From positions 1 through 21,131 of the IMG/VR virus record IMGVR_UViG_3300030098_003514: 21,131 bases of DNA. The stretch is one strand, 5' to 3'. Position numbers and translations under genes: made by a program. A model generated the notes under the pieces. That model made no database searches and had not been told where the DNA came from. It worked only from the letters and a program-made list of their open reading frames with translations. This document shows, piece after piece, positions 3,500-19,706 of this stretch. The stretch's first letter is position 1, and each line of letters opens with the position of its first letter. This DNA is from a virus.

Positions 3500-6400
3500 A
3501 TGCCTATCGCTACAGGAACAGCACCTTCAGGGGAAAAGTTTGAATTTTATGTGCCTAAAGGTACTCCTGACGAACAAGGCCCAGCGTTAGCAAGGGATGC
3601 TTACTTCAGATTACGCCAAGGTATTGACGTTACACTACCCCCTCCCCCTCCAGAAAGCACCATCGGTGGGGAACTCATGCGGGGTGGGGAATCTCTTTTT
3701 TCTGCTTTACGTACTGCTGGGGGTGCAGCTTTTGGGGATGACGAAGCAGCCGCACTGGCAGGGTTGGAGCGAAGCGAAGACATAGCACAACGCTACGGTG
3801 AAGGCCCATCTTTCCAGAAAGTACTAGATGCTGAAGGAATAATGCCTACTGTAGGCACTGCGCTAGGTCAGATTCCACAAGCAGTTGCGGGTCAAGTTCC
3901 ACAAATACTTACCACAGTTGCTGCGGCAAAAGCAGGGGCACTAGCGGGTGCTGGAATAGGTTCTTTTTTCCCCGGTATAGGCACAGCCATAGGTGCTGGA
4001 ATAGGCGCAGGTGTTGGCGGTCTTGCTTCTCTTATACCTCAATTTACTGGGTACAATCTTGAACGTCAGGCTCAAGCCGACATAGACGAAGGCCGTCCGG
4101 TAGATGTAGACCTTGGTAAAGCTGCTGGTACAGCCGCCTTACAATCAGTGCCAGAGTTAGCGGGACAGTACTTTATCTTAGGTAAAGGTCTTGTAAACAA
4201 GTTGGTACAAGGAGATGTTACAAAGTTAAGCGCCACTCAGCTACGAGGAGCTGCGGAAAAACTAGTGCGGGAGGCAGACTTAGGTACAGCTAAAACTATA
4301 GGGCGAGGCATTGCTAGAGGTGCGGGTGTAGAGATGCCTACAGAAGTGGCTCAACAAGTTTTGGAAAGAGCACAAGCTGGCCTAGATGTACTATCTCCTG
4401 AAGCTCTTTCTGAATACGGTGAAGCAGCTTACCTTGCTGCTACTGTTGGCGGTACACTTGGCCCGATGGGTGCTTTAGGTAGTCGATCACGAGCGCGAAG
4501 ATTACGTGAAGAGCTGAGTGGACGTGAAGACACTGTTGCAGAACCTGTTACAACTGGGACTGATCTCGTACCTGTCCCAGAACCCCCATTGGAAGGAGAA
4601 GTTCTTCCCCCTACTTCTCCCGTTCCTCCCGCTTTGCCTCAAGGAACATATCGCTTACCCCCACCCCCCACTGGAGATGGTTCGGCTATATTAGTTGACC
4701 CACAAGGTAGGGCGTACCCTGAAAGGTTCGCAGCCGCATTTGAAGAAGCGATTGCCAATGAAGAAAAATTAAGAAGTGAGGGTGCACAACGCGAGTTATT
4801 TACGGAGATTATGGCTGAAGAAAAAACAGCTATAACTAAAGAAGATTTAGAAGGTTTAGGTATTACAAGCACTAAGTTAAAGAAAGAACTTCCTGCACTT
4901 GATTTGGCTGACCCACAAGATGCCCGTACTGCTGTAGAAACCATCGTTAATTATGCAAATAACCCTACAGTAAAATCTCGTTACAGAGATAGTCGAAATA
5001 AAGTATTGGGTTTACTTAACATGCCCATACTAACGAGAGCAGAAACGTTAGCCGCAAGAGAAAGCGCACAACAAGAAGCAGGTGAAATAGCTTCTGAAAT
5101 GGATCAGATTGTTCGTGGAGATGCACCGGGACAAGTAACTATAGAAGAAGGTATTGAACAGGATGTTATTCAGGAACAACAGGAAGCAGCTTTTACACAG
5201 CGCGAACAAGAACGTGCAGAAGACTTACAAGCGTTGGCAGCAACGATGGAAGCAGGACAAGATTCTTCTGTAGAACCTACGCTAGGTGCAGTTTTACGAG
5301 AAGCGCAACAAGAACAAGATCGTACTGGCCGTCCAGTAGAGGGACAAGCGCAATTAGAGATACCACAAGTAGACCCTGCTGACCCTGCTGCTCAAGCACA
5401 AGCAGAAAGCAATCGTTTAGATCAGGAGATTGCAGAACAACAACGCATACTTGAAAAACTAGAAGAACAAAGACAAGAACAAGTAGAAATGCTTGGCCCT
5501 CGTGGAGGAATCCTACGACCTAATCGAAGAGAAAACGTTAAGAACGCCACAAACGAAGAGGCACAAGCAGCTAAAGAAGAAGCTACTACTGTCGAGTCAG
5601 AACCACAGGCAACTGGCGATACTCGTAACGCAACAGAAGAAAGCGTAGCTCAACAACAAGTTGACAAAGAATTAGACGAAGAAAAAATCCGAGCAGAGTT
5701 TGAGACAATAGAAACCCAAGAGGAAATGTTAAGTTTTCTTTCGGGTGTTGCTTATGATTCCATTGATGGAACTGCCCAACAAAAAGCAGCCGCAAGAGCT
5801 AAAGTAGCGTGGATTCAACAAAACACTTCTGAAAGCACTAGAAAAAATTTAGAGGCTATGCAGCGCAGTATACAAAGTGACTTGGGTATGCCTCTCCCAA
5901 TGAAGAAACTAGTGGGAGCAGCGGCTGTTTTAGACCCAGAAGTTACCCAGCTACTACGAGAAGGGAAACTGGCAGAAGCTCTGGAACTACTTGGCAATAA
6001 TCAGGATAAAGATGTACGAAGAGTTGCCAGAGCCATCAACAAAGCCATTGCAGAAAGTGGTACTAAGGTTACATTCCAACCGAACTTGATGGATGGGAAA
6101 GGGCGTTTGTTGGCAGGTATGTTCGATCCTAGAACTAATACTATTATTCTTAACGAAAGCATACCCCCTACTAACCACGCTTTGTTGCACGAATCCTTGC
6201 ACGCTGTTACTTCACACGTAATTGCTAACAAAAGCAGTTCAACTACTAAACAGTTACAGACACTCTTTGATAGTGTTAAAGACAGATTAGAAGACGCTTA
6301 CGGTACTACTAACCTTGACGAATTTGTTGCCGAGGCTTTTTCCAACCCAGAGTTCCAAGCCAAACTAGCTTCTATGGACACCAACGGAGACAAGTTAGGG

Positions 6401-9400
6401 ACATGGGAGCGATTCAAGAATATAGTGGCTAACGTAATTCGCGTATTACGCCGTCTTCCTACAAAGAAATTGAACTCAGCAATGAGTGAAGTAGATAAGA
6501 TAGTAGGGGACATGATCTCTCCTGCTCCTCAATACCGTAACGCTCCTGCTATGAACCTAGCGGTAACGGCAGGTAAAGAAGATGCCTTTATGGATGACGT
6601 ATTTGACGGATATGGGGGTAAGGTTCCGCAAGATGCGGCTTCTATATTTAATGCGTATATGCCAGAAGCTCCCACTAACGCTCGTAGATTCTTTTTTAAT
6701 GTACTACCTTTAAACTCCATAGCTGATTGGGCTAAACAAAGTAACAACGAAGGTATACAAGACTTAGGCAGAGCTTTAGATGAACTGTTTAAAGTTATCC
6801 AACAAAAGAATGGCTCTAGGCAAAAATATTTATTGAAAAATAAAGACATGGCGAGGCGGTTTGAAAAAGTACTTAAGCAGTTAGGGGAAAACCAACGCAA
6901 ACTTTTTAACTTTGTAGTTGAAGAAAGTACTTTACTTAGGATAGACCCTTCCAGAGAAAACGCTAAAGAGTACTATACAGGGTATCGTTACACTGTCGTA
7001 GATAAAGACGGTAACAGAAATACTTATCATTTTCCAACTGCGGAAAAAAGAGATGCGGCTTTTGAGAAAGAACAAGCTAAGAATGATAAGTTGCCAAAAG
7101 AAGAACAATCAAAGTTCGGTAAGATAAACCCTAGCGAAGAAGCAGAAAAAGACTACAACAATATAATGGAGTACTGGAATAGGCTTGATCCAAAAGCAAA
7201 AGCGGTGTACGTAGAGTTACGAGATGCTTATTCAGATGCTTACGAAGATTTACGTAAAGCCTTGGTAGCACGTATTGATGGAGTTAAAACCGATTCTGAA
7301 GAAGCGGTACAAGCAAAACAATTATACAAAGATAAAATTTTACTGGATCTTTTAAACAAAGAACTTATAGAACCTTATTTTCCGTTGTTTAGAAAAGGCG
7401 ATTTTTGGTACACCCATAATGGTTTTGACCCAATTACAGGACAACCTGAAGTATTTAAAACTGCTTTCGACTCTAGGGAAGACAGGCGGCGGTACGAACA
7501 AGCTATCTTGCAAGACACAAGACTAAGAGAAGAATTACTTACAAGTGAAGCAGGTATTATTGTTGAAGCTAGAAAAAGAGGACGGGAAGCACTACTAGCA
7601 GATAATCCTAATGCCACTCCTGAACAGATACAGGAAGCAGAATTTAGAGCTGCTTTGGAGGGTTCGACGTTAAATCGCCCTCAAGTTGACGCATCAGAAC
7701 GTTCTTCCGTAGAGATTCGATGGGCACAAGGGCTACTTGCAGATGTACAATCGAAAAAGAACCAAGCCGCAGAAAAAGCCAAACAAAAAATATTAGCTAA
7801 AGCTAAAGAAGAAAATAGAGAACCCACACCTGAAGAACTTGCAGCCGCAGAAGCCAAGTTTGAGCAAGTAATGGAGGCGGGTAATGCCTTTGATAGTATT
7901 TTACAAAATGCTCTTATTGACGCAATGCCAGAGCGTTCTTTGTACCGCGCTTTTAAACGCAGAGAAAATATTCGTGGAGCACAAAGAGATGCTATTGATG
8001 TGTTCCGTCAACGTATGCCAGCTTTTATGGGGCAAGTAGATAATTTAAAGTTTGATGCTCCTTTTGACCAAGTTAAAACTAATTTAAAGAATTTACAAAC
8101 AAAGGTTACTGGTAGTCAGGGCGAACTGGACTACGCGGAACAGTTGGTTAGGAAAGGGACAGAATACATAGACTTTGTTAAAAACCCTAAAATAAGCACT
8201 TGGGCTAGAGGGTTGAAATCATTTGGGTTCTTGATGACGTTAGGTTTTAATGCTTCTTCTGCTGTAGTTAACTCTTTCATCTTACCCATTGTAGTGTTGC
8301 CTTATTTAGCAGGACGCTATGGGATGAGTGACACGATGGCAGCTATGATAGAAGCTAAAAAATTGTATTTTGGCGCTGGTCTTAAACGCAGGGTAGAGGG
8401 ACTTGAAGACCTTGAAGGGCTTGAAGGCGCAGACCTAGATGCGGAGTTAAAGAAACGAGGTTTGACCAAAGATGACCTATATGCGATTGATGGGCCTAGC
8501 CTCGCCAACCTTGATCTTGAAAACTTACCGGAAAAATATGCAGAACTTAAGCCTCTAATAAGAGAACTTGTTGACAGAGGAGCAGCTAACGCAACTACTA
8601 TTGGAGACATGCTAGACGTAGACGACCCAACGGGTGGGAAGTTTGGTCGAATTTTAACTGCTGTAAACGGAATTTCTGGGTTTATGTTTCACCAAGGAGA
8701 AAGGTTCAATAGACAAGTTACAGCGATGGCTGCGTACAAACTAGCGTTGGATAAAGCTAAAGCAAATAGCAAACTAGAAACTGTAAGAAAACCTCCAAAA
8801 GAAGGTGCTACTAAAGAGCAGATTCGTAAATACGAAGCCTATTTGGAAAAAGTACACGCATTAGGTAGTGATTTTGTAAACGAGGTAATGCTTGACGTTG
8901 AGCATACTAACAGTGGTGCATTAATAGAAACAGCTCCTACAATCGCACAAAAAGATATTGCAAGTGTACTTCTTATGTACAAACGATTTGGTGTGTCTAT
9001 GGCATATCTGCAAATAAAGATGGCTAAACAAGCATTTACGCGAATGGGAAATTTTGATCCAGACGAACGAGCACAAGCTAAAAAACAAATTGCTGGGTTG
9101 CTTGGTATATCTGGCTTGTTGGCTGGAGCACAAGGGTTACCTCTTTATGGCATATTTGCAGACGTATTTAATCTCTTACTGCTAGACGATCAAGATGATG
9201 ATTTCGATAGCATTGTAGCCGCTAACATCGGAGAAAACGCTTATTCAGGTATACTCAATCAAATTTTTGATGTGGACATCGCCCCTCGTATCGGCATGAG
9301 TAATTTAATATTTAGGTCGCTACCTAATAGGTCAAATACAGATTCGTTCCAATACTTTATGGAAATGGCAGGTGGCCCTGTTTACGGTATAGTGGATCGT

Positions 9401-9937
9401 ATGTTCCGCAGTAGAGACCTTATGGCTGAAGGCGAATACAGACGTGGGTTGGAGGGAATGTTACCTGCGATTTTTTCAGGGCCATCGAAAAGTATCCGCT
9501 ATGCTACTGAGGGTGCACGTACTCTACGAGGTGATCCGATTACAGAAAACTTATCAACACGTTCTATTATTGGGCAATTCCTTGGGTTTGCCCCTGCTGA
9601 CTACACGAAACAACTAGAGCTAAACGCACGAGATAAACGTATAGACAGAAACATTAGTGAGAAAAGAACTAAGTTGTTACGTCAACGTTACATGGCTTTC
9701 CGTGAAGGAGACTTTACAGGAGTGCTTGACGCGGATAGGGAGATAATGGAGTTCAACATGGAAAACCCTGAAGTAAGGATTACAGGGTCTACGAAGAGCA
9801 GGTCGTTAAGACAACACCGCATAACCTCTATGATAGCACGCAGACTAGGGGGTATAACGGTGAACCGACAACGTTTGAACGCTGTTATTCGTAAACGCCT
9901 CCAAGAACTGGGCGAAGATGACTTTTATGTAGGGTAA
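3500..9937 (+). CDS. Giant internal virion protein (large polyvalent protein type) with HExxH metallopeptidase signature, 2145 aa
   Basis: AAGGAAG lies just upstream of the ATG. Segments in order: a short N-terminal module; a glycine-zipper hydrophobic stretch (residues about 138-180, AGAGIGSFFPGIGTAIGAG) that could enter a membrane; a Pro-rich linker (about 355-393); a Gln/Glu-rich coiled-coil-like region (about 510-735); and a metallopeptidase-like domain with HESLH at 897-901 and EFVAE at 941-945, whose Glu could be the third zinc ligand. A long helical region follows, with two further hydrophobic stretches (about 1574-1605 and 1864-1896). The C-terminus is basic and helical. The size, architecture and segments such as YFPLFRKGDFW resemble phage large polyvalent proteins, and T7 gp16 offers a functional analogy for DNA ejection. 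No lytic transglycosylase motif was found. That it is packaged and ejected is inference. Confidence 0.8.
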   Translation: MPIATGTAPSGEKFEFYVPKGTPDEQGPALARDAYFRLRQGIDVTLPPPPPESTIGGELMRGGESLFSALRTAGGAAFGDDEAAALAGLERSEDIAQRYGEGPSFQKVLDAEGIMPTVGTALGQIPQAVAGQVPQILTTVAAAKAGALAGAGIGSFFPGIGTAIGAGIGAGVGGLASLIPQFTGYNLERQAQADIDEGRPVDVDLGKAAGTAALQSVPELAGQYFILGKGLVNKLVQGDVTKLSATQLRGAAEKLVREADLGTAKTIGRGIARGAGVEMPTEVAQQVLERAQAGLDVLSPEALSEYGEAAYLAATVGGTLGPMGALGSRSRARRLREELSGREDTVAEPVTTGTDLVPVPEPPLEGEVLPPTSPVPPALPQGTYRLPPPPTGDGSAILVDPQGRAYPERFAAAFEEAIANEEKLRSEGAQRELFTEIMAEEKTAITKEDLEGLGITSTKLKKELPALDLADPQDARTAVETIVNYANNPTVKSRYRDSRNKVLGLLNMPILTRAETLAARESAQQEAGEIASEMDQIVRGDAPGQVTIEEGIEQDVIQEQQEAAFTQREQERAEDLQALAATMEAGQDSSVEPTLGAVLREAQQEQDRTGRPVEGQAQLEIPQVDPADPAAQAQAESNRLDQEIAEQQRILEKLEEQRQEQVEMLGPRGGILRPNRRENVKNATNEEAQAAKEEATTVESEPQATGDTRNATEESVAQQQVDKELDEEKIRAEFETIETQEEMLSFLSGVAYDSIDGTAQQKAAARAKVAWIQQNTSESTRKNLEAMQRSIQSDLGMPLPMKKLVGAAAVLDPEVTQLLREGKLAEALELLGNNQDKDVRRVARAINKAIAESGTKVTFQPNLMDGKGRLLAGMFDPRTNTIILNESIPPTNHALLHESLHAVTSHVIANKSSSTTKQLQTLFDSVKDRLEDAYGTTNLDEFVAEAFSNPEFQAKLASMDTNGDKLGTWERFKNIVANVIRVLRRLPTKKLNSAMSEVDKIVGDMISPAPQYRNAPAMNLAVTAGKEDAFMDDVFDGYGGKVPQDAASIFNAYMPEAPTNARRFFFNVLPLNSIADWAKQSNNEGIQDLGRALDELFKVIQQKNGSRQKYLLKNKDMARRFEKVLKQLGENQRKLFNFVVEESTLLRIDPSRENAKEYYTGYRYTVVDKDGNRNTYHFPTAEKRDAAFEKEQAKNDKLPKEEQSKFGKINPSEEAEKDYNNIMEYWNRLDPKAKAVYVELRDAYSDAYEDLRKALVARIDGVKTDSEEAVQAKQLYKDKILLDLLNKELIEPYFPLFRKGDFWYTHNGFDPITGQPEVFKTAFDSREDRRRYEQAILQDTRLREELLTSEAGIIVEARKRGREALLADNPNATPEQIQEAEFRAALEGSTLNRPQVDASERSSVEIRWAQGLLADVQSKKNQAAEKAKQKILAKAKEENREPTPEELAAAEAKFEQVMEAGNAFDSILQNALIDAMPERSLYRAFKRRENIRGAQRDAIDVFRQRMPAFMGQVDNLKFDAPFDQVKTNLKNLQTKVTGSQGELDYAEQLVRKGTEYIDFVKNPKISTWARGLKSFGFLMTLGFNASSAVVNSFILPIVVLPYLAGRYGMSDTMAAMIEAKKLYFGAGLKRRVEGLEDLEGLEGADLDAELKKRGLTKDDLYAIDGPSLANLDLENLPEKYAELKPLIRELVDRGAANATTIGDMLDVDDPTGGKFGRILTAVNGISGFMFHQGERFNRQVTAMAAYKLALDKAKANSKLETVRKPPKEGATKEQIRKYEAYLEKVHALGSDFVNEVMLDVEHTNSGALIETAPTIAQKDIASVLLMYKRFGVSMAYLQIKMAKQAFTRMGNFDPDERAQAKKQIAGLLGISGLLAGAQGLPLYGIFADVFNLLLLDDQDDDFDSIVAANIGENAYSGILNQIFDVDIAPRIGMSNLIFRSLPNRSNTDSFQYFMEMAGGPVYGIVDRMFRSRDLMAEGEYRRGLEGMLPAIFSGPSKSIRYATEGARTLRGDPITENLSTRSIIGQFLGFAPADYTKQLELNARDKRIDRNISEKRTKLLRQRYMAFREGDFTGVLDADREIMEFNMENPEVRITGSTKSRSLRQHRITSMIARRLGGITVNRQRLNAVIRKRLQELGEDDFYVG
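6188..6334 (+). other. HExxH ... E zinc metallopeptidase signature inside the giant virion protein
   Basis: Bases 6188-6202 encode HESLH, and 6320-6334 encode EFVAE about 40 residues later. This matches the gluzincin layout, in which two His from HExxH and a downstream Glu bind zinc and the Glu of HExxH acts as base. The preceding segment (TIILNESIPPTNHALL) fits the strand and helix that normally lead into the motif. Confidence 0.65.
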
Positions 9938-15316: not shown

Positions 15317-15345
15317 ATTATATGGGCACTCTTTTTATATTTCAA
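15317..15345 (-). promoter_or_regulatory. Sigma70-type promoter, minus strand
   Basis: TTGAAA (15345-15340; five of six match TTGACA) is separated by exactly 17 bases from a perfect TATAAT (15322-15317). The -35 box overlaps the last codons and stop of the SNF2 gene. Expected transcription start is near 15310, giving a leader of about 33 bases before ATG 15277. It would drive the 147-aa, HTH, six-Cys, SSB and primase genes. Confidence 0.7.
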
Positions 15346-16876
15346 GTAGTTCATTGTATAAATCTATTATTTTTGTGTGCACATCTATTCTTTCGTCAAG
15401 TAGTTTATATACTCTTTTCTCTACTGGTGCTCCCTGTAACTGCACCACAGTACAAGGATGATGCTGTCCTGACCGATGCACTCGTGCGTTAGCCTGTGCA
15501 TACGTTTCCAATGAAGCCACTGGCCCCCACCATACAACGGTATTAGCTGCGGTTAGGGTGACACCATGTGCTGCTGCTTGCGGTTGGATTATTAGTACTC
15601 TGGGATCATCTGTAGTTTGAAAATTACGAAACAGTTCCGTGCGCTTAGAGACGCTAACATCTCCCCGGATAATGCCGTTAGTTATTTTGTCAGCAAGAAG
15701 TTTCTCAGAGAGTATATCAATGACATGTTTGAACGGAACAAAGACCAGCACCTTTTGGCTAGACTCATCAATAGCTTCCTTCAATACTTTGTATCGGTTC
15801 TTTATATCAAACTCTACCGTCTCACCGCTGTCGGCATAAACTGCACCACAGGAGATTTGCAATAGTTTGTTCATCGTAACGGCTGCGTTTGCTGCTGTAA
15901 CTTGTTCCCCTGCTGCCATCGTAAGCATGTGTTCTCGAATGGCCTTGTAGTATTTCTTTTGTTGCGGTGTAAGTTCTACCTCACGTTTGGTGTATGTGAG
16001 TTCCGGTAAATCCAAACATTGTTCTTTGGTGTATCTAATGGCAGGTTGCAAGGCTGCGTGCACTGTGGGTATTGCGGTATCTTTTGGAACCCATTTAAAC
16101 TGAGTTACCTTATACATAACCATCTCACGAAAAGCACTAAAAGAGCGTGGCACTGCCAGAGGGTTTAACATTTTGGCTAAACCAAACGCATCTAATGGCG
16201 ATTGTGCAGCAGGAGTTCCTGTCATCATCCACATCCATGTCTCTGGTTTCATTATTCTGTTAAGTGTTTTCCATCTCTTGGATTGTGCGTTTTTGTAGTG
16301 GGTAGCTTCGTCTACAATAATCAAGTCGTAACCTGCCATCTTGATATGTTCTTCCACAATCTCTACGCCATCGTAGTTTATTATCACAAACTCCGCGTCA
16401 CTCATTATTATCTTACGGCGTTTGTCTTTAGGGCCATGCGCTATGTCTACTGTGCGGTGCATAGCAAACTTAAATAGGTCAGCACGCCAAGCCGAATCCA
16501 TTATGGATAGGGGACATATAATAAGTACTTTCTTAATTACTTGTTCTTTCATTAGAAAGTCTGCTGCCCATATTGCAGAGGCAGTTTTCCCAGTGCCTTG
16601 TTCGTTAAAACAAAAAGCACGAGGATTCATAGTAAGGAAAGAACTTGTGGTCTTTTGATGCTCGAAAGGTTTTAGATGCCCTGTCCATTTATACTTGCCC
16701 AGTATGGGAGACGGTACATCTTTTATGTTCAGGTTACGGAGGACACGAGCTTCGTCTACGCCCCACCGCACCAATACTTCGTTATTACCTAATGACTTGC
16801 TAGTTGGTATGGCAGTCGTAATTCTTTGAGGGTCACGCACCTTCAGGCGTAGCCCCCTGTTCTCAACTACTTGCAT
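15335..16876 (-). CDS. SNF2-type DEAD/H-box helicase/translocase, 513 aa
   Basis: This is an ATP-driven dsDNA translocase of superfamily 2. Motifs in order: I NEQGTGKTASA (GTGKT 94-98), Ia CPLSIMDSAW (121-130), II VDEATHYKN (188-196), III MMTGTPAAQSP (217-227), IV KVLVFVPFKHV (375-385), V VLIIQPQAAAHGVTLTAAN (427-445) and VI QANARVHRSGQ (461-471). The RVHRSGQ arginine finger and DEAT box mark the SNF2/Rad54-like branch. GGAG lies 5 bases before the ATG. Phage SNF2 genes commonly accompany a family A polymerase, a PD-(D/E)XK protein and a DUF2815-like SSB, as here. The likely role is fork remodelling or recombination; the exact substrate is unknown. Its end carries the -35 box of the next promoter. 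Confidence 0.92.
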   Translation of the reverse strand: MQVVENRGLRLKVRDPQRITTAIPTSKSLGNNEVLVRWGVDEARVLRNLNIKDVPSPILGKYKWTGHLKPFEHQKTTSSFLTMNPRAFCFNEQGTGKTASAIWAADFLMKEQVIKKVLIICPLSIMDSAWRADLFKFAMHRTVDIAHGPKDKRRKIIMSDAEFVIINYDGVEIVEEHIKMAGYDLIIVDEATHYKNAQSKRWKTLNRIMKPETWMWMMTGTPAAQSPLDAFGLAKMLNPLAVPRSFSAFREMVMYKVTQFKWVPKDTAIPTVHAALQPAIRYTKEQCLDLPELTYTKREVELTPQQKKYYKAIREHMLTMAAGEQVTAANAAVTMNKLLQISCGAVYADSGETVEFDIKNRYKVLKEAIDESSQKVLVFVPFKHVIDILSEKLLADKITNGIIRGDVSVSKRTELFRNFQTTDDPRVLIIQPQAAAHGVTLTAANTVVWWGPVASLETYAQANARVHRSGQHHPCTVVQLQGAPVEKRVYKLLDERIDVHTKIIDLYNELLEI

Positions 16877-16891
16877 CGTTACTCCGAGATG

Positions 16892-17185
16892 TTATTTAGA
16901 TTTCTTTTTTGTGGTCTTCTTCTTTTTATAATTTCGAGACCGATTCTTACTCTTGCTTTCTATCTTGTACCCGTCTTTGTTAGTACCGCCCTTGCTTAGA
17001 GCTTTCTTGTGGCTAACATCTTTGCCCTCTCGCTTGTCGGCTTTACCGTTTTTGTTTTTGTCCACGCCTGTCTTGTCTATCTTACGTCTAGCACGTTGTC
17101 GTTCCATACGATCAGCGTGTTCGCCTCGTGCTTTCTGTTGTTGGTACTCCTTCTTATAAGGACGTTTCTTTTTTGTGTATGGCAT
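16892..17185 (-). CDS. Small basic HNH-like protein with EF-hand-like loop, 97 aa
   Basis: I chose ATG 17185 because GGAG lies 9 bases upstream and the start is 2 bases after the nuclease stop; the longer frame to 17227 lacks support. The protein is extremely Lys/Arg-rich, including the last 20 residues. Residues 56-82 (DVSHKKALSKGGTN ... SKSKNRS) resemble a minimal or degenerate HNH layout: Asp-x2-His, Gly-Gly-x-Asn, then Asn-Arg. Related small phage proteins with DVxHKDGNP...KSKNRSF are known to me from podoviruses. Just before it, D42-x-N44-x-N46-G47-x2-D50-x2-E53 exactly fits an EF-hand/dockerin calcium loop. Nuclease activity is uncertain because some expected HNH residues are not obvious. 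A DNA-binding or architectural role is an alternative. Confidence 0.7.
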   Translation of the reverse strand: MPYTKKKRPYKKEYQQQKARGEHADRMERQRARRKIDKTGVDKNKNGKADKREGKDVSHKKALSKGGTNKDGYKIESKSKNRSRNYKKKKTTKKKSK

Positions 17186-17187
17186 AA

Positions 17188-17865
17188 TTAACGTCTCCCA
17201 TTGTGTGGACATTCTAGTATGACACAATGTGCCTTACACAATCCAGTGGGTCTTGGATTCCACACATCATTCTCAAAAGTTTTCTCTAATGTTCCATAAC
17301 TAGTTAGCCACTTACGCCATAATCTAGTCTGGTCGTCTCTCGTATACGTTTCTTTAATTAGCTTATTACATACCGTAAATAACAACCCTGACTTGACAAC
17401 TTCTATCTCAGGGAAGTGCCTAAAGACGCACAAAGCCATGAGTTCCAACTGCCCTTTATCAGCGTACCTTGTGGACTTACTTGTTTTGTAATCGAATACT
17501 CGCGCTATTTTATTTTCCCTATCAAGGATTATTAAATCAGCTACACCTCTGTACCACACGTCCTTATCAAAAAACTTACATGGGTCTAAGTTAGAGGTTA
17601 TACCCATTCTGTATTCACACAACTTTTCTCCATCCATTGCTAACAACTTATCTAGCATAACTTTAGCGTAAGAAAATCTAGGATCAAGTTCAGGTACAAC
17701 TTTACTAACATAATCTTCTGCTGCTTTATGGAATTCATTACCATAAAACATTGCTTCCGATTGTGGTTCTTTATAATCCTTTAGTACTCTTAAGTGATGG
17801 TATTTCTTTGGACATTGCTCAAAAGATTTTAAGCTGCTGAAAGACCATGCAGGTTTGGTGTCCAT
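17188..17865 (-). CDS. PD-(D/E)XK nuclease with Cas4/AddB-like cysteines, 225 aa
   Basis: This is a RecB-family nuclease fold. Landmarks are SFSSLKSFEQCPKKYHH (8-24), GNEFH (H46), RGVADLIIL (D110), VFDYKTSKS (D125, K127) and Q139. C18 near the N-terminus and C210-x3-C214-x4-C219 at the C-terminus give the one-plus-three cysteine layout that holds a 4Fe-4S cluster in Cas4 and AddB nucleases. The likely activity is ssDNA exonuclease or endonuclease in recombination or end processing. The ATG lies inside the polymerase gene, which it overlaps by 37 bases, so the two are coupled. It could be compared with DUF2800 proteins, which accompany polA and SNF2 in other phage modules. No CRISPR array or Cas1 is present, so it is not a CRISPR component here. 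Confidence 0.85.
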   Translation of the reverse strand: MDTKPAWSFSSLKSFEQCPKKYHHLRVLKDYKEPQSEAMFYGNEFHKAAEDYVSKVVPELDPRFSYAKVMLDKLLAMDGEKLCEYRMGITSNLDPCKFFDKDVWYRGVADLIILDRENKIARVFDYKTSKSTRYADKGQLELMALCVFRHFPEIEVVKSGLLFTVCNKLIKETYTRDDQTRLWRKWLTSYGTLEKTFENDVWNPRPTGLCKAHCVILECPHNGRR

Positions 17866-19706
17866 TCAATACAGTCCCCATAGTTCTTTCCAATTTCCAC
17901 ATCCCCACGGACAGGAAGGCCAAGTGCCCATTCGGGTACATAAGCCATACAGGAATTAATGTAGTTACAAGCCTCTTCAACTTGTTCATCAGATACACAG
18001 CATACCACGGAATCATGTACTGTTAGCAACACCTTGTATTTCTTTTGTATCTCCAACATTTGCTCTGCCATTACACAACGTGCAATAGCCTGACATACAT
18101 TTTCTATTACCTTACCACCGTAAATTTTAATGTAGCCTTGCCTTGTCTTGTACATAAACTGTGGTCTCCCTTCGTCATCATGTTCTATCTTCAACTTGTT
18201 GTAGTACATGTTTAGACCTGACGGTAACTGGATTGCATTATCTCTAGGTATTATCTTCAACACATTAGCTCTACCTAAAGCATACCTCTGATCACGGTGC
18301 ATCCCAGTTAGTGCATCCCCTGCGTTTCGCCACAACCCTGTTATCTTATTATTAGTATCTCGGTATACCTTTATAATCCTGCGACATTCTTCCTCATCAA
18401 CTTCTACACCTAATGTTTTAAGTTGATCACGAAAGCGCACTGCACCCATACCATATCCTGCTCCGAGTATCGTAGTCTTGCCAATAAAACGTTGATCGGC
18501 TGAGACATCCTCTACAGGAATATTATAGATAGTGCTTGCCATCTTCTTGTAAACATCTTCGTCACGTTCAAAGGCTTGTACCAGATTGTTTTGTTCTGCT
18601 AACCATGCGAGAACCCTAGCCTCTATCTGAGCAGAATCGGCCTGAACAATAGTGTGACCTTCTGGCGCACACATACATGACTTGAGTATCTTGGCATTAG
18701 GCCCACGAGAGGGAAGGTTTTGTAAGTTTACTTTGTCAGCGCCACCCCATCTTCCAGTGTGAGCTGCATAGTAGCGGATAGGTACAGGTAACTGTTTACC
18801 ACGAGTGGATATATCTAAGAACCTTTCCGTTCTTGTTTCTTCTAAAGTGCTCTTTAAACCAAGCCTTGCTGTTACCAGCGTTTGTACTCTTATGTCCTCA
18901 TGTTCTTGTAGAGCCTTAAATGCTTCGTCTGTTTTTGCAAACGCATAAGTTTCTTTCCCAGTTCTAGGACTTACCTTTATCGGTGGGGTAACTTCAATCT
19001 CTTCTAACAGTTCAGCGAACTTATTGTTAGACATAAGGTTTTCTCGTTCCACTCCACTCTCTGTAAGAAGTTGCTCTTTCTGTGCTTTAAGATTGTCCAA
19101 GTGCTGGTCTAGCTTACCCACATCCAACACTAACTGAGGTTCGATAAACATACGTAGGGTCATGTCTATCACCTTAAGTTCCATCTTCGGGAACATGCGT
19201 TTGTTCATAAATATAGAAAACAATTTATGCGTAAGTTCCACGTCATTGATGCAGTAGTCGCCGTACTCTGCTAGTTCTTGTTCGCTGAAGTCGCTTCTTC
19301 TTTTTCCTTCGGCTTTGATAACTTCGTCTCCTTTCTGCCCGATGCCATACATCTCAGACAATGATTTAAGAGATGCAGAGGTGTCGACACCATGAAGTGC
19401 ACGAGCCATACTAAGCGTGTCAAAATAGAGCTTGCAGCGTATGCCAAAAAGCCAATGCAAAATAGCACCATCGAACAAAGTGTTATGAGCCAAGACAGCA
19501 GCGTTTCCCCAATCATAGTTATCTCCTAAATAAGTTTTCAAATCTTCATAGCTACCACTAAGCCAATCAGTCTTTCCATTATTAACTTTTACGGCAACAC
19601 CAATGACTTCAAAATCGGAACTACGCACATATTGTTCAGTAGTAAGTTTCCTAAAACCAAAAGTCTTGCTGTAATAAGTTTCAAAATCTACCGTTATTAT
19701 ATCCAC
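17829..19706 (-). CDS. polA: Family A DNA polymerase with 3'-5' exonuclease, 625 aa
   Basis: This is the replicative polymerase. The proofreading domain has Exo I VDFET (D7, E9), Exo II HNTLFD (N75, D79) and Exo III YCINDVE (Y151, D155). The polymerase domain has motif A VQADSAQIEAR (D357), motif B R406-x3-K410 ... Y418-G, and motif C VHDS (H564, D565). Aligning motif B by R and K to E. coli Pol I R754/K758 places Leu414 at the Phe762 position. There is no 5'-3' exonuclease domain, as usual in phage. The start is GTG: the upstream gene's TAG shares its G (TAGTG), GGGG lies just upstream, and the next Met is residue 100, which would remove Exo I. The C-terminus overlaps the next gene. Confidence 0.95.
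   Translation of the reverse strand: MDIITVDFETYYSKTFGFRKLTTEQYVRSSDFEVIGVAVKVNNGKTDWLSGSYEDLKTYLGDNYDWGNAAVLAHNTLFDGAILHWLFGIRCKLYFDTLSMARALHGVDTSASLKSLSEMYGIGQKGDEVIKAEGKRRSDFSEQELAEYGDYCINDVELTHKLFSIFMNKRMFPKMELKVIDMTLRMFIEPQLVLDVGKLDQHLDNLKAQKEQLLTESGVERENLMSNNKFAELLEEIEVTPPIKVSPRTGKETYAFAKTDEAFKALQEHEDIRVQTLVTARLGLKSTLEETRTERFLDISTRGKQLPVPIRYYAAHTGRWGGADKVNLQNLPSRGPNAKILKSCMCAPEGHTIVQADSAQIEARVLAWLAEQNNLVQAFERDEDVYKKMASTIYNIPVEDVSADQRFIGKTTILGAGYGMGAVRFRDQLKTLGVEVDEEECRRIIKVYRDTNNKITGLWRNAGDALTGMHRDQRYALGRANVLKIIPRDNAIQLPSGLNMYYNKLKIEHDDEGRPQFMYKTRQGYIKIYGGKVIENVCQAIARCVMAEQMLEIQKKYKVLLTVHDSVVCCVSDEQVEEACNYINSCMAYVPEWALGLPVRGDVEIGKNYGDCIEWTPNLHGLSAA

Follow-up and report, generated by a model that had tools for sequence, protein, structure and literature searches.

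A predicted HNH-derived mini-protein with a conserved EF-hand-type loop encoded beside a phage SNF2 helicase gene

What a calcium-type loop might do directly in front of an HNH-like motif, in a protein of fewer than 100 residues, is the question raised by a small gene of the IMG/VR virus record IMGVR_UViG_3300030098_003514. The window, that is, the whole stretch of 21,131 nucleotides analysed here, had been read from its letters, and the original prediction described a basic HNH-like mini-protein with an exact EF-hand loop, encoded between a PD-(D/E)XK nuclease gene and an SNF2 gene and perhaps acting as a calcium- or metal-gated DNA-binding or cutting protein.

The gene is a 97-aa ORF on the minus strand (16892..17185), with its ATG at 17185 and its stop at 16892. 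A plus-strand reading of the same interval was ruled out by an internal stop, and a longer TTG-start ORF (111 aa) was ruled out because the homologues begin at the Met of MPY. The product, the mini-HNH protein, is highly polar, K-rich and very basic (pI 10.5), and has no Cys. Directly upstream lies a PD-(D/E)XK nuclease gene (17188..17865, minus strand; PF12705, E 2.8e-12), whose stop is followed after two bases by the mini-HNH start. Directly downstream is an SNF2-family helicase gene (15335..16876, minus strand; PF00176, E 7.3e-25; PF00271, E 8.5e-15), and both genes are conserved neighbours. A family A DNA polymerase gene, PolA (17829..19706, minus strand; PF00476, E 1.9e-40), belongs to the same replication module, which in the window also holds SSB-like, DUF927 and SNase genes on the minus strand. 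The cassette order is PolA - PD-(D/E)XK - mini-HNH - SNF2 - SSB-like - DUF927. Searching the 21-kb record, which is a fragment, for VRR-NUC found none, and a repeat scan of the mini-HNH neighbourhood gave short pairs only. Elsewhere in the window, a 2145-aa ORF on the plus strand (3500-9937) contains an LPD39 polyvalent-protein domain (E 5.5e-7) and gave a sub-threshold metallopeptidase-type match.

In a profile search the window protein matched PHROG_4590 at E 5e-8 over residues 5-95 of 97; this match, the translation and the shared MPY start place the gene in that large, widespread phage family of unknown function. Pfam and NCBIfam searches with the window protein matched no family, including no HNH model. 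A first similarity scan confirmed at least 592 IMG/VR relatives among 600 candidate stretches, and relatives were present on five metagenome-assembled genome contigs. Isolated phages with a relative include ICP2, CW02, Klyazma, Alcaligenes phage QDWS535, kuraviruses such as SU10, and others, where the gene is mostly annotated as hypothetical or as a putative endonuclease. These isolate relatives are loop-less, as had been expected of other small HNH-like phage proteins. The same loop-less 90-aa mini-HNH recurs in three phage records, L082 (OQ594354.1), L083 (OL906435.1) and PP438419.1, which are all 65014 in length and name different hosts; one of the three annotates it as Cas9/Csn1 family. 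A search of the open-access literature returned no paper that deals with PHROG_4590 or describes an EF-loop in HNH proteins of phages.

The first scan used six search words, two of them inside the loop, and the loop was present in nearly all of its 80 loci. This loop-biased sample was used only for the codon count, the tree and gene order, and frequencies were taken from a loop-blind scan whose query was solely the C-terminal 51 residues of a relative; 79 of its 80 genes were counted, L097 being left out as it starts inside the loop. A wider set comprised 226 distinct proteins, 127 with the loop and 99 loop-less, under a pattern that allows Q at position 12. Identical sequences and L081, L097, L132, L135, L234 and L236 (copy, partial or wrongly shortened) were left out of it, as were L081-L083, L176-L185 and near-identical DNA from the gene-order counts.

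The AlphaFold2 model of the window protein (mean pLDDT 78.4, pTM 0.57) has helices at residues 10-20 and 23-39, coil over the loop, strands at 55-59 and 73-77 and a helix at 78-83, the last three elements making up a predicted beta-beta-alpha finger (16937..17023, minus strand; pLDDT about 80). Foldseek gave no match of this model in the PDB, and VIA with the same model was also fruitless; the best viral Foldseek match was an HNHc phage protein in BFVD (E 3.4e-3). The AlphaFold2 model of a loop-less relative matched 63 PDB chains at Z of at least 2, most of those listed being HNH. Its neighbours were GmeHNH (best, Z 3.7), Cas8-HNH, colicins E7/E9 and the ZRANB3 HNH, and the Z values are low. 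Loop-less relatives also matched HNH_5 (best 5e-4) and HNH (best 1.2e-3), both below the curated cut-off, and phage endonuclease VII/HNH families (2.7e-5 and 7e-5), and the family profile run against PDB sequences placed colicin E7/E9 and Cas8f-HNH first at non-significant values (colicin E 0.3). The protein is predicted to be HNH-derived and to contain a beta-beta-alpha finger.

The EF-hand-type loop, DKNKNGKADKRE, covers residues 42-53 (17027..17062, minus strand). D42, N44, N46, D50 and E53 stand at ligand positions 1, 3, 5, 9 and 12, G47 at position 6, K48 at the backbone ligand position and Ala49 at position 8; D56 follows the end of the loop by three residues and H59 by six. Translation of the minus-strand ORF confirmed the location of the loop, its ligand positions and the numbering of H59 as originally given. 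In the loop-blind scan the loop was present in 71 of 79 full-length genes and 61 of 69 distinct proteins. D1, G6, A8, D9, R11 and E12 were invariant in these 61 proteins, position 3 was N (56) or D (5) and position 5 was N (47) or D (14); positions 2, 4, 7 and 10 drifted, with ten different residues at position 2. When changes were counted over the 82 loop rows of a tree built with the loop columns excluded, there were none at positions 1, 6, 8, 9 and 11, one at position 12 (E/Q), five at position 3 and five at position 5 (N/D only), and 32, 21, 10 and 20 at positions 2, 4, 7 and 10. Such a substitution pattern would be as expected for metal ligands. Neither R11 nor A8, both invariant, is a side-chain metal ligand, and their fixation shows that the loop has packing or other roles as well.

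The synonymous codons were mixed at the fixed residues. Among 136 distinct genes, including those of the loop-biased scan, D1 was encoded by GAT in 69 and GAC in 67, both synonymous codons were common at D1, D9 and E12, and all four Ala codons were used at position 8. In 200,000 shuffles of the window protein the loose EF pattern arose at 2.75e-4 and the strict pattern at 1e-5, and loose matches elsewhere numbered 18 in 563,993 residues of other open frames of at least 100 aa in the fetched loci. Conservation in the loop-blind sample is a stronger argument against chance than the shuffles.

DxDxDG calcium loops occur in Excalibur, dockerin and TSP3 proteins. Like canonical EF-hand and DxDxDG loops, the window loop has 12 residues, oxygen ligands at 1, 3, 5, 9 and 12 and Gly at 6. 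Unlike a canonical EF-hand it is single and lies between predicted helix 23-39 and strand 55-59, not in a paired helix-loop-helix. The Ala that the original prediction had pointed out at position 8 was found in 136/136 distinct genes, in place of the I, L or V of an EF-hand. The EF-hand Pfam profile matched none of 75 members at E<=5, and the Excalibur profile matched only 2/75 (best E 0.19). An EF-hand in the strict sense was therefore rejected, on the single loop, the predicted helix-loop-strand arrangement, Ala at 8 and the missing Pfam match.

All 82 loop-bearing rows of a 168-row tree grouped in one clade (SH-aLRT 100), which also includes seven loop-less or degraded rows (L109, L115, L121, L146, L268, L270 and L019, the last without the Gly only). 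On this tree the loop characterises a single supported clade and occurs in no row outside it. The loop label needs eight changes on the tree, of which the starred branches force at least four; the number of losses is approximate, as 88 columns for 168 rows leave many unresolved forks. Eight of the 69 loop-blind proteins had no strict match: L108 and L134 have Gln at position 12 only, L115 is degenerate, and L109, L121, L129, L131 and L146 have other linkers in place of the loop. The loop of L019 (protein positions 42-53, DKNKNKVADKRE) has lost only the Gly at position 6. L146, L268 and L270 carry a short linker, RKGKD, just before KD.AH, as in loop-less outgroups, and recombination between loop-plus and loop-minus alleles is a possible origin.

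Older relatives outside the clade are loop-less and mostly have the HNH metal-ligand Asp; the loop was gained around the time of losing this usual metal-holding residue. The loop does not appear to be essential, since some lineages lost it and still have the gene with both neighbours. Part of what had been named in advance as evidence against the original prediction was observed: relatives outside the clade have no loop, and several lineages inside it lost or degraded theirs. Loss or degradation in clade lineages that retain the rest of the protein and the gene order weakens the case for an indispensable calcium gate; it does not speak against metal binding. An HNH-derived protein with a selected EF-type loop is the description that holds, as judged from the alignments.

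Two residues are the same in all 226 proteins of the wider set: H59 (17009..17011, minus strand), which ends strand 1 (55-59) of the model and is a candidate general base, and N81 (16943..16945, minus strand), a candidate sole side-chain metal ligand in helix 78-83. D56 (17018..17020, minus strand), three residues before the His, is found in 127/127 loop and 86/99 loop-less proteins, and R82 is invariant in the loop group (127/127). By the residue counts of the 226 proteins, S58 (17012..17014, minus strand) stands at the place of the usual HNH metal-ligand Asp, which is lost, so that the window protein has no canonical Asp or His ligand at -1. The -1 residue in the loop group is A in 78, S in 47, D in 1 and H in 1 (A/S in 125/127), and in the 99 loop-less proteins it is D in 63, A in 24, G in 6, N in 3, H in 2 and S in 1. 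L139 and L069, both loop-bearing, again have His or Asp there (DVHH, DIDH). Asp at -3 was present in 158/159 proteins where -1 is not D/H versus 55/67 where it is. The middle Asn is absent, with an H-to-N spacing of 23, in 116/125 A/S loop members, and 61/65 loop-less members with D/H at -1 have a spacing of 24 and a middle Asn. The window protein reads GGTNKDGYKI in this region and has no canonical middle Asn. The HNH-like layout proposed originally was thus borne out for the predicted beta-beta-alpha finger and the invariant H59 and N81, but not for the middle Asn or the -1 metal-ligand Asp.

These residue associations describe clades and are no proof of coupling; the Fisher values calculated on them ignore relatedness. 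The association between the loop and loss of the -1 Asp amounts to about one event on the tree, and an independent-pair test gave no support. The -1 Asp was lost in another, loop-less clade as well, which rules out the loop as a general compensation for its loss.

In ZRANB3, D1020A, at the equivalent -1 Asp, abolishes cleavage (PMC5481773). Other sources describe sites held differently. In GBS NucA (DKGH), Asn179 is the only direct metal-binding residue, with the -3 Asp145 in a network behind it (PMC4220975); the metal of I-PpoI is held by waters, phosphate oxygens and a conserved Asn (PMC11092635); and a further source describes EndoG as a DRGH enzyme of the H-N-N type (PMC2653514). Asp at -3 together with the helix Asn occurs in 127/127 loop members, though Gly at -1, the third feature of DxGH sites, does not occur in the window protein. 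From the -3 Asp and Asn pattern and from the NucA, I-PpoI and EndoG precedents, we infer that D-V-S-H...N may be a DxGH-like site.

The predicted slot of the gene was confirmed well beyond the window. PD-(D/E)XK lies within 1.5 kb upstream in 126/128 testable loop loci and SNF2 within 1.5 kb downstream in 124/126, and the mini-HNH gene lies between the two in 108/110, the exceptions being L018 and L266; it is directly adjacent to both in 51/110. Both neighbours were present in 33/53 loop-less loci, and the canonical D-H members L226 and L257 adjoin SNF2. Since loop-less loci share the order, the partnership with the SNF2 cassette is probably older than the loop. In the three Zobellviridae phages ICP2 (L176), CW02 (L177) and Klyazma (L179), the loop-less gene has tail, internal virion or lysis genes around it and is not beside SNF2, so that a second role or timing of the family is possible. 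In isolated phages with related SNF2 and nuclease genes, the same slot is annotated as a VRR-NUC gene (Rhizobium phage RHph_TM3_14A) or an HNH gene (Acinetobacter phage HHU4). A nuclease-type gene beside the SNF2 motor is a recurring theme.

Some loci contain additional ORFs in this region. L004, L007, L040 and L106 have an extra ORF of 137-153 aa between mini-HNH and SNF2, which in L040 matches PDDEXK_14 (PF24579, E 3.3e-27). L099 and L101 have a 147-aa Cys-containing ORF between PD-(D/E)XK and mini-HNH, that of L099 weakly matching HNH_5 (E 0.046), and a similar ORF of 173 aa is found in L038; these three are possibly free-standing homing endonucleases. A 99-aa ORF before SNF2 in L164 looked like VRR-NUC by eye and was not called so, having no Pfam match.

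Among known proteins, the closest are PHROG_4590 and the phage mini-HNH proteins neighbouring it (e.g. Vibrio phage ICP2 gp12, Salinivibrio phage CW02 gp36 and Klebsiella phage Klyazma orf020), which are homologous over almost the full length and share with the window protein an R..R, D..H, GG, N pattern. The isolate proteins (L082, L083, L176-L181) differ from it in having no EF-type loop, and several have the -1 Asp. With HNH/His-Me finger nucleases (colicin E7/E9, GmeHNH, T4 endonuclease VII, ZRANB3 HNH) the window protein shares the predicted finger, the strand-1 His and the helix Asn; unlike them it has no -1 Asp/His ligand, no middle Asn and no Cys for a zinc knuckle. It resembles DxGH nucleases (GBS NucA, EndoG, Serratia nuclease) in the -3 Asp, a small -1 residue and a single helix Asn. 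It differs from them in having Ser/Ala rather than Gly at -1, no sequence-profile match, a tiny size, a place in a phage replication module and an EF-type loop. ZRANB3 itself is an ATP-dependent SNF2-type enzyme carrying an HNH domain (PMC5481773). SNF2 and HNH cooperate at forks in that protein, whereas in the window the mini-HNH (97 aa) and SNF2 (513 aa) are separate ORFs side by side, not a ZRANB3-type fusion, and the mini-HNH protein has neither the D1020-equivalent Asp nor a zinc finger.

The reading that we favour, tentatively and at a little under an even chance, is a DxGH-like mini-nuclease serving the SNF2 motor and carrying a non-essential divalent-metal staple; its nicking and metal roles are ones that we infer. 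The protein would be a mini His-Me-finger (HNH-derived) member of the phage replication/recombination cassette and would nick DNA, its probable substrates being structures that the adjacent SNF2 motor exposes or remodels. As general base the site would use H59; one Mg2+ would have N81 as its sole side-chain ligand, supported from the second shell by D56. Such a site (D-V-S-H) would be DxGH-like and would differ from the D-H site with two ligands found in ordinary HNH enzymes. A second divalent ion, most likely Ca2+ and possibly Mg2+, would sit in the loop and staple the turn that joins the preceding helix to the catalytic strand. The loop, without being essential, would thereby tune or stabilise the protein. 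Against this reading, the -1 Asp that is essential in ZRANB3 (PMC5481773) is missing here, and the Gly of a true DxGH is Ser; H59 and N81 could be invariant for structural reasons. A more specific form of it is rather doubtful: that a single branch exchanged the Asp ligand for a DxSH/DxAH one-Asn site and an EF-type Ca2+ loop six residues before the His, giving an SNF2 motor a nicking subunit that depends on Mg2+ and is tuned by Ca2+, with a structural (Ca2+) and a catalytic (Mg2+) site in fewer than 100 residues.

A serious rival, possible though less probable than the nuclease, is that the protein is a catalytically dead HNH-fold DNA-binding cofactor that clamps or recruits DNA for SNF2 or PD-(D/E)XK, the loop being a structural staple. 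The -1 Asp has become A/S in 125/127 loop members, nearly all A/S members have lost the middle Asn and one residue, the corresponding D1020A kills cleavage in ZRANB3 (PMC5481773), and a net charge of +27 and a pI of 10.5 would suit DNA binding. Yet H59 and N81 (226/226) and D56 and R82 (127/127) never change, which is unusual for a dead site, and active nucleases with a single Asn ligand exist (PMC4220975, PMC11092635, PMC2653514). That the EF-type loop is itself a replacement catalytic or gating site, at which Ca2+ or Mg2+ switches the nuclease on and offsets the lost Asp, seems improbable. The loop does end close to D56 and H59, at three and six residues, and marks the same deep clade as the -1 Asp loss, but as one evolutionary event that association is non-independent evidence; the loop-losing rows L109, L121, L146, L268 and L270 keep A at -1 and the downstream SNF2, and the separate loop-less clade has lost the -1 Asp as well.

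There is also little probability, in our view, that the loop binds no metal and is a polar turn balancing charge or touching a partner protein, like an EF loop by chance. The polar, K-rich protein, the lack of a hydrophobic residue at 8 and the fixation of R11 and A8 to the same degree as the ligands would fit such a turn; the restriction of positions 3 and 5 to oxygen ligands while 2, 4, 7 and 10 drift, and the rarity of even the loose pattern among shuffles (2.75e-4), speak against it. HNH genes are often mobile, and other HNH-type ORFs seem to be inserted in a few loci (e.g. L099 and L101). That this gene is itself a mobile HNH gene, of the free-standing homing kind or another, which landed here by chance is nevertheless highly improbable, given the same slot in 108/110 loop loci across a divergent clade and adjacency to both neighbours in 51/110.

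Gene order and residue pattern give PHROG_4590 a testable role, that of a nuclease-type partner of a phage SNF2 motor. The family is an unusually clean evolutionary case: a tiny nuclease fold gained a 12-residue calcium-type loop and gave it up again several times, while the cassette around it stayed fixed. If metal is bound, this would be a natural DNA protein of very small size with two metal sites, and it could show whether an HNH active site survives the loss of its Asp ligand.
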